Assembly: GCF_000016665.1 (NCBI RefSeq)
Contig: NC_009523.1
Coordinates: 4,463,501 to 4,527,500, forward strand
Source: Roseiflexus sp. RS-1
GTDB lineage: Bacteria > Chloroflexota > Chloroflexia > Chloroflexales > Roseiflexaceae
Direction: 5' to 3'
DNA length: 64,000 bases
Part shown: piece by piece, positions 20,245-56,281 of the stretch
Position numbering within the stretch: the stretch's first letter is position 1
Layout of the letters: the number at the start of each line of letters is the position of its first letter
Position numbers and translations under genes: made by a program
Notes under the pieces: model-generated
What the model was told of the DNA's origin: nothing
Seen by the model: the letters and a program-made list of their open reading frames with translations, nothing else
Database searches by the model: none

Positions 20245-20248
20245 CAGA

Positions 20249-20532
20249 TAGAGATTGAGAATTATAGCGGTTCTCAGATACGTTGACCCCTGTCCGGGTC
20301 TGCCGTGCCGTGCGAGGCGCCCGTTTCCGGCAGAGCGTAGACCGAAATTCATTTCGGTCACCGTGTTGGTCGCGCGATTCTGGGAGTGTTCAACCCTGTC
20401 CAATTGGTTCAACCTCTGTGGGAACTGCTATAAATCCGGTATGCGCCTCTTGCCGTCGGGCTAAAGCCCTCGGCTATCCAGGGCGAAGCCCGCCTGCGCG
20501 GGCTATAGCGGATTATTTCTATAAAGACCATA
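20249..20532. repeat. Compound repeat: family 1 element interrupted by family 2 element
   Basis: Fills the convergent gap after the sugar kinase. The outer family 1 copy (reverse orientation) starts with AGAGATTGAGAAT near 20250 and resumes at 20432 with AATCCGG, two GC-rich hairpins (GGGCTAAAGCCC type and GCCCGCCTGCGCGGGC) and an end at AAAGACCAT (20524-20532). Between lies a family 2 element at 20263-20432, bounded by TATA on both sides and by imperfect inverted ends (AGCGGTTCTCAG / GGGAACTGCT). Family 2 carries an intact palindrome GACCGAAAT-TC-ATTTCGGTC at 20340-20359. No coding potential is seen. Confidence 0.8.
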
Positions 20533-23125: not shown

Positions 23126-23138
23126 CACGCATGAATTA

Positions 23139-23433
23139 CAGCATTTCTCAGATACGTTGACATCGTTCCTATCTGCGGCGTCGCACGAGGCGCCCGCTTC
23201 CGGCAGAGTGTAGACCGAAATTATGGTCTTTGAATAAATAATCCGGTGTAGCCCGCGCAGGCGGGCTTCGCCTTGCATAGCCGAGGGCTTCAGCCCCACG
23301 GCTCGTTCGGTATAGCGGATTAAATTCTCAATCTCCATCATTTCGGTCGCCGCGTGGGGCGCGATGGTAATTGTGGTCGTCCGAGGCGTGTTCAACCCTG
23401 TCCAACAGGTTTAACCTCTGTGAGAACTGCTAA
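23139..23433. repeat. Family 2 element carrying a family 1 insertion
   Basis: The outer copy is family 2 (left end GCATTTCTCAGATACGTTGA, right end TGAGAACTGCTA). Its central palindrome is split: GACCGAAAT (23213-23221) lies left and ATTTCGGTC (23340-23348) right of a ~118-bp family 1 element (23222-23340). Compared with the intact palindrome at 20340-20359, the insertion sits exactly at the dyad centre. Family 1 begins TATGGTCTTTGAATAAATAA and ends AATCTCCATC, with two GC-rich hairpins inside. The element separates the convergent receiver and fabF genes. Confidence 0.82.
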
Positions 23434-39539: not shown

Positions 39540-40135
39540 GCGGCGATTCTCACAGAGGTTGAACCCAACGGACGAAGTTGAACACTCCCAGAATTGCGCG
39601 CCTCACGCGGCTACCGAAATGAATGTCGGTCTACGGGAGAAATACGCCGAAATTTATTTCGGCATAGCGTCGTTCTCACAGAAGAGTGGATAATGCGATG
39701 CGCCCGGCGTCCAGGTGGCGCGTTTGTGATCTCCGAGAGAAATACGCCGAAATGTAGAGCAGTTCTCACAAAGGTTGAATCTATTGGACGAGGTTGAACA
39801 CTCCTGGAAATGGCGCGACCCACGCGATGACCGAAATACATTTCGGTCTACACTCTGCTGGACGCGGGCGCCTCGCGCGACACGGCAGGCCCAGACCGGG
39901 GTCAACGTATCTGAGAACTGCTATAATCCGGTATTCGCTCTTGCCGTGGGGCTAAAGCCCTCGGCTATGGAATGCGAAGCCCGCCCGCGCGGGCTGGATT
40001 GACAGGCCGCGTCAGCGGCCTTCGTCCTGGTAGCCGAGCCCTTCAGGGCGACGGCTCAACCGTCGGGGTCAACCCCTCGGCTCTGCGGTGCGAAGCCCAT
40101 CTGCACGGGCTATGCCGGATCAATTCTAAAAACTC
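39540..40135. repeat. Compound repeat island (families 1 and 2)
   Basis: Fills most of the 708-base convergent gap. In order: a partial family 2 end (39546-39625), two copies of GAGAAATACGCCGAAAT (39637-39652 and 39737-39753), a complete reverse family 2 element (39755-39924) with intact palindrome GACCGAAAT-AC-ATTTCGGTC at 39829-39848, then a reverse family 1 element from 39921. Family 1 is extended to ~40131 by extra hairpins (GCCGCGTCAGCGGC, GAAGCCCATCTGCACGGGC). The last ~95 bases before the glycosyltransferase stop show nothing. No coding potential. Confidence 0.75.
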
Positions 40136-56125: not shown

Positions 56126-56281
56126 CGCGGGGAGTGTAGCACAGGATGATGGTCTTTGAATAAATAATCCGGTATAGCCCGCGCAGGCGGGCTTCGCCTT
56201 GCCTGGCCGAGGGCTTTAGCCCCACGGCTAGTCCGGTATACCGGATTAAATTCTCAATCTCCATCATCCTGTGTCCCCGCG
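56126..56281. repeat. Family 1 element inside a large palindrome
   Basis: The element (about 56147-56267) runs ATGGTCTTTGAATAAATAAT, hairpins AGCCCGCGCAGGCGGGCT and GGGCTTTAGCCC, and AATTCTCAATCTCCAT. It is flanked by perfect 13-base inverted arms CACAGGATGATGG (56140-56152) and CCATCATCCTGTG (56261-56273), extended by CGCGGGGA (56126-56133) / TCCCCGCG (56274-56281). A separate hairpin CGTGAGA-N8-TCTCACG lies at 56106-56127. The region is the gap between the oxidoreductase and the synthase-like gene. Confidence 0.82.

Follow-up and report, generated by a model that had tools for sequence, protein, structure and literature searches.

Insertion of a 116-bp MITE at palindrome centres in Roseiflexus sp. 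RS-1 and its relation to an IS630-family element

How does a small hairpin-forming repeat come to lie exactly in the middle of a palindrome that belongs to another repeat? The question is raised by positions 23213-23348 of a 64,000-bp stretch of the Roseiflexus sp. RS-1 chromosome (the window), where a sequence-only reading had seen a family-1 repeat splitting a family-2 palindrome at its dyad, had noted the same palindrome intact at two other places, and had suggested mobilisation in trans by a system directed at hairpins or cruciforms. The split and the intact copies are both borne out by the sequence. The site reads GACCGAAAT T, 116 bp, C ATTTCGGTC, the left half of the palindromic target (GACCGAAAT and the central T) occupying 23213-23222 and the right half (the central C and ATTTCGGTC) 23339-23348; with their central bases the halves are GACCGAAATT and CATTTCGGTC, respectively. 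The family-1 element between them is a MITE on the plus strand (23223-23338, ATGGTCTTTG...CAATCTCCAT) of exactly 116 bp, with two internal hairpins, imperfect terminal inverted repeats and a strong fold (z -4.67). Its host is a family-2 MITE with the ends TACAGCATTTCTCA...TGAGAACTGCTA (23137-23433, limits approximate), which is split at its central palindrome. That palindrome is found empty at 20340-20359 (GACCGAAATTCATTTCGGTC) and at 39829-39848 (GACCGAAATACATTTCGGTC). Family-2 palindromes are imperfect in that their two central bases are unpaired, and it is precisely between these two that the family-1 insertion falls.

A second family-1 element (56149-56264, plus strand) is likewise exactly 116 bp long and is framed by CACAGGATG at 56140-56148 and CATCCTGTG at 56265-56273. 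The perfect inverted arms of 13 bases that had been described for 56147-56267 are thus correct as inverted flanks but not in their extent, since only nine bases belong to the target and the other four are the terminal repeat of the element (ATGG/CCAT). Three congeners, which are too far diverged here, lack both the element and the palindrome at this place, so that the comparison with related strains yielded no orthologous intact palindrome for this copy. A third copy (20248-20531, minus strand) has its right arm broken by a family-2 MITE (approximately 20263-20432) that is flanked by TA. The two families are therefore nested reciprocally, family 2 inside family 1 at 20248-20531 and family 1 inside family 2 at 23223. 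Family 2 itself resembles a classical TA-flanked MITE with the ends TATAGCAGTTCTCA and is found at 20263-20432, at 39752-39927 and in more than 50 places of the genome.

Palindromic flanks throughout the genome

Pattern searches of the chromosome (5,801,598 bp in a single contig) gave approximately 330 family-1 left ends (165 + 169 matches), as compared to none with a reversed control pattern. When the copies are aligned, the ends come out as ATGGTCTTTG...CAATCTCCAT, and the length is nearly always 115-117 bp. Of a first set of 63 distinct full copies, 47 were flanked, around a two-base centre, by perfect arms of 5 bp or more; with the breakpoint shifted by 1-8 bp none was. As the first query carried the arms of one target, a second set of 51 intact copies was picked mostly on left-end matches alone, with the flanks disregarded; 32 of these are framed at the exact dyad by perfect arms of 5 bp or more, as opposed to none at 20 breakpoints shifted by 1-10 bp and to a chance expectation of about 4^-5 per copy. 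Arms of at least 4 bp flank 78 of 109 distinct copies of this genome. Outside the strain, arms of 5 bp or more flank 9 of 20 family-1 copies of a congener (at least 4 bp in 12 of the 20) and three of four copies in another genus of the family. In this genome dyad symmetry is a property of most copies, and no target-site duplication was seen among the copies examined. These averages are dominated by a few repeat targets, and the independent evidence comes from unique targets and from homologues.

Perfect arms are missing in about a quarter to a third of the copies, some of which have arms of only 3-4 bp. The armless copies often lie between halves of two different target families or between arms with point differences. 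Flanks of such mixed origin occur at loci L012, L016, L018, L019, L055 and L263 and probably result from recombination between dispersed copies.

As the arms prolong the inverted repeat of the element into one long hairpin, they might be regarded as its own variable outer stem, in which case nothing would have been inserted into palindromes at all. This we consider hardly credible and have rejected, because the arms derive from other repeats that are found empty, at 20340 and 39829 in the window and as 45 intact family-2 palindromes in the examined loci. In addition, some arms derive from the second hairpin of the element itself, and the ends remain constant at 116 bp while the arms vary among copies.

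A related IS630-family element with the same target rule

The sequence-only reading had placed the transposase outside the window and had asked for one with matching ends. We looked for left ends that are not followed by the interior of the MITE and found 13 in the genome. One of them (L118) is a MITE variant; the other 12 are the right end of an IS of 1256 or 1258 bp, which brings the gene into the same genome. The right end of the IS equals the left end of the MITE over 23 of 23 bases, and the other (right) MITE end matches its IS end in 16 of 23. All 12 IS copies are inserted at GGGCT N^N AGCCC inside MITE hairpins, with both arms retained and no target-site duplication, and thus follow the rule found for the MITE.

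The IS contains two frames, of which orfA stops at CCCCCTGA and is followed by orfB in the +1 frame in every copy (12 IS copies, L109-L123); a full-length transposase would therefore need a +1 frameshift at the stop codon. The product of orfB matches the profile NF033545 (transpos_IS630) at 1.5e-37, above the cut-off, and that of orfA at 2.1e-05, below it. A sequence search of the PDB gave no match. The AlphaFold model of orfB (pLDDT 82) has Mos1 mariner transposase as its best structure matches in the PDB. The catalytic Asp/Asp/Glu motifs are present as D101-E102, D183-N184 and N244-P245-(I/V)-E247 and are invariant or nearly so in 12 homologues. Some of the IS copies carry stops or altered catalytic motifs, so not all of them will be active. 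By its sequence and predicted fold the transposase belongs to the IS630 family, yet it departs from the insertion into TA with duplication of TA that is a feature of IS630/Tc1/mariner elements: none of the 12 IS copies is duplicated at its flanks, and the centres are T^C, G^A, A^A and G^C, a T^A centre being one at which insertion without duplication would be indistinguishable from TA duplication. We therefore take it to be no standard member of its family. At a T^A centre ATG...CAT without duplication is the same as TG...CA with a duplicated TA, which suggests that the palindrome mode may have arisen from the canonical one.

Homologues of the transposase were found at 21 loci in Chloroflexota, Cyanobacteria, Proteobacteria, Saprospirales and others. 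Fifteen autonomous ISs could be compared, namely those of the 13 loci with recognisable ends, one from the Chloroflexales (L145) and the Roseiflexus IS, 14 thus being from other genomes; the boundaries of L160 and L170 were placed manually. All 15 carry T at -2 and A at +2. Ten of them (nine of the 14 from other genomes) are flanked by perfect arms of 5 bp or more, which run for as much as 14 bp until a mismatch is met; the remaining ISs mostly lie in imperfect palindromes, with almost none at L145. The pairing of the arms over the 15 ISs was reached in 0 of 10,000 partner shuffles. The target rule is thus conserved across phyla, and judging from their mutual similarity and a common signature (DNWPVHFHPDVL) the palindrome-targeting transposases appear to form one clade. 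Some of these genomes also encode further IS630 transposases (L192, L197, L204, L207, L209 and L216); their elements apparently have TA or CTAG on either side, lack a palindrome and look canonical by their flanks, with TA duplication. Searches of plasmid and viral collections gave no confirmed relatives, and among sampled cyanobacterial genomes from the order of the Nostoc locus the transposase was present in only two, both among the loci already found.

Could another enzyme move the MITE, with the ends that it shares with the IS being secondary? The genome contains two genes for IS200-like Y1 transposases, one of them among REP-like hairpins that also carry an insertion, and such an enzyme beside a REP array would be a candidate. 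We regard this as very improbable, since MITE and IS have not only the 23 end bases but also the target rule in common, and no family-1 ends were recognised by eye around the one Y1 gene inspected. The Y1 transposase is an unlikely mobiliser; although a family-1 insertion is close to its gene, the hairpins around it are those of another REP family. This array, at L107:889-2040 (chromosome 907.4-908.5 kb), is a long series of REP-like hairpins with the Y1 gene within it and a family-1 insertion in one hairpin, and may represent a REP-associated transposase system.

Target choice and a proposed mechanism

The palindromes that receive the element are of several kinds: the central palindrome of the family-2 MITE, and the second hairpin of the element itself (AGCCGAGGGCT T^C AGCCCCACGGCT), which yields nested head-to-tail arrays. 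Others are repeats of the REP-like GGGCTNNAGCCC type, a repeat GCGGTTNNAACCGC and palindromes that occur singly, for instance CACAGGATG^CATCCTGTG in the window or CGCGGGTA^TACCCGCG at L281. Common to these targets of differing sequence is a core T-N^N-A, position -2 being T in 117 and position +2 being A in 115 of the 124 distinct copies compared. Out of 214 distinct left ends, 132 lie at the apex of hairpin 2 and 26 at that of family 2, but none in the loop of hairpin 1, despite the presence of 217 intact hairpin-1 copies in the same sequences. Hairpin 1 has a four-base loop and lacks the T/A core; its avoidance therefore indicates that symmetry alone is insufficient. This goes beyond the sequence-only reading, in that a T-N^N-A centre is required, or at least strongly preferred, in addition to symmetry. 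Moreover, of 45 copies nested in hairpin 2, 44 are oriented with the ATGGTC end towards the T of TC. This bias of 44 to 1 suggests that the enzyme reads the centre or the stem asymmetrically, and the nearly fixed direction would make nested arrays grow head-to-tail.

Does the transposase then recognise a folded palindrome, or does it read duplex DNA, a symmetric dimer preferring a short symmetric sequence (e.g. GCT-N-N-AGC) that palindromic repeats happen to offer, with no hairpin being extruded? The near-constancy of T at -2 and A at +2 is what such a preference would produce; the weak minority sites, which are often GCTNNAGC with arms of only 3-4 bp, and the strong direction bias at hairpin 2 also agree with it, and as a few repeats dominate the palindromic targets there is room for it. 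The avoidance of hairpin 1 would be expected of either kind of target, given that the T/A core is missing there. On the other hand, arms as unrelated as GAAAT, GGGCT, GGAT, GGTT, GGGT and GGCAT are used by one enzyme and still are complementary to their partners. For 18 targets outside the main known repeats (one L318 site being entered in two registers), left and right flanks are complementary at 76 of 126 positions; shuffling the partners lowers this to 48 on average, and in 20,000 such shuffles the value of 76 was never attained. Duplex reading thus appears unlikely to us, if by some distance the strongest competitor, and because the arm sequences vary and yet stay complementary the target is most likely the folded palindrome.

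We therefore think it very probable that the 116-bp element is a non-autonomous MITE of the 1.26-kb IS630-family IS in the same chromosome, and that it joins the centre of palindromes at T-N^N-A without a stagger, the target likely being folded. The IS transposase, a DDE enzyme of predicted Mos1-like fold that is encoded by two successive frames, would bind the shared ends ATGGTCTTTGAATAAATAATCCG and move IS and MITE by cut-and-paste, excising either as ATGG...CCAT. The excised element would then be inserted, with no stagger, between the central two bases of a palindromic target whose core is T-N^N-A, leaving one arm of the target on either side and producing no duplication. If hairpins or a cruciform are extruded, the cut in each strand would fall on the tip of the hairpin formed by that strand, and the usual 2-bp stagger would thereby disappear. 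The second hairpin of the element (GGGCTTCAGCCC) serves as a target too; copies accordingly nest head-to-tail, and each of the 12 IS copies lies inside a MITE hairpin. The suggestion of a system directed at hairpins or cruciforms hence gains support from the palindromic flanks and the transposase. What the sequences show are the ends of the element, its place at the dyad, the lack of duplication, and a transposase gene with a rule shared across phyla, whereas movement of the MITE by this transposase and recognition of a folded target are inferred.

Relation to known elements

Known members of the IS630/Tc1/mariner superfamily insert differently. For ISY100, TA is almost the only target and becomes duplicated on insertion (PMC2170065), and in work on Mos1 the superfamily is characterised as strictly TA-specific, with a stagger of 2 bp (PMC5481204). 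The Roseiflexus elements agree with them in profile, predicted fold, DDE motif, terminal inverted repeats and the existence of MITE derivatives, but use any N^N within T-N-N-A between palindromic arms and duplicate nothing. We see in this a mode of targeting that is apparently new to an otherwise known superfamily. In the open literature we found no IS630-family element that targets palindromes; an earlier description may exist in subscription papers or in ISfinder. Since mariner-type transposases are model enzymes for strict TA specificity and the 2-bp stagger (PMC5481204), a natural clade with the same fold and stagger-free insertion at palindrome centres would, if confirmed, provide a contrast for studying what determines target choice and stagger. 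It might also report the extrusion of hairpins or cruciforms in vivo, and it would be a candidate mechanism for the piling up of small hairpin repeats inside one another in microbial genomes.

Insertion into repetitive palindromes is also known of ISs that target REP sequences, each of which is directed to particular REP families. The families listed for them are IS3, IS110, IS4, IS256 and IS5, with IS621 and IS1397 as examples, and do not include IS630 (PMC1525189); the enzyme described here thus lies outside the families so far named as REP-targeting. IS1272 of the IS1182 family undergoes stem-loop-replacing transposition, in which inverted repeats are targeted and removed (PMC5678879). As in our case it is structure rather than sequence that is targeted and no target duplication arises, and one could imagine that the family-1 element similarly takes the place of a target hairpin. 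Such a replacement has next to nothing in its favour beyond this likeness and was rejected: both target arms are retained around the element, and the same arms occur in the empty sites, which contradicts removal of the stem-loop, and the transposase belongs to a different family.

The closest described phenomenon is SMR-A (HqIRS42, HqIRS43 and HqIRS55) of Haloquadratum walsbyi, whose mobilisation is called enigmatic, with no transposase known (PMC3119063). SMR-A elements are described there as approximately 110 bp long, with inverted terminal repeats and no target duplication, lying inside near-terminal palindromes of IS605-type elements and PATEs. Going by this description, the 116-bp element resembles them in size, inverted ends, lack of duplication and insertion into palindromes; they differ in being archaeal, and the description gives no dyad position to the single base. 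We are inclined to believe, with less assurance than for the Roseiflexus elements themselves, that a clade of IS630/Tc1/mariner transposases in Chloroflexota, Cyanobacteria, Proteobacteria and Bacteroidota gave up TA targeting for zero-stagger integration at the tips of extruded hairpins or cruciforms with a T-N^N-A apex, that the hairpins of its own MITEs act as recurrent landing pads, and that this may also explain the haloarchaeal SMR-A. PATEs themselves are a different kind of element, having no terminal inverted repeats and IS605-type ends, whereas the 116-bp element has terminal inverted repeats and shares them with the IS630-family IS.
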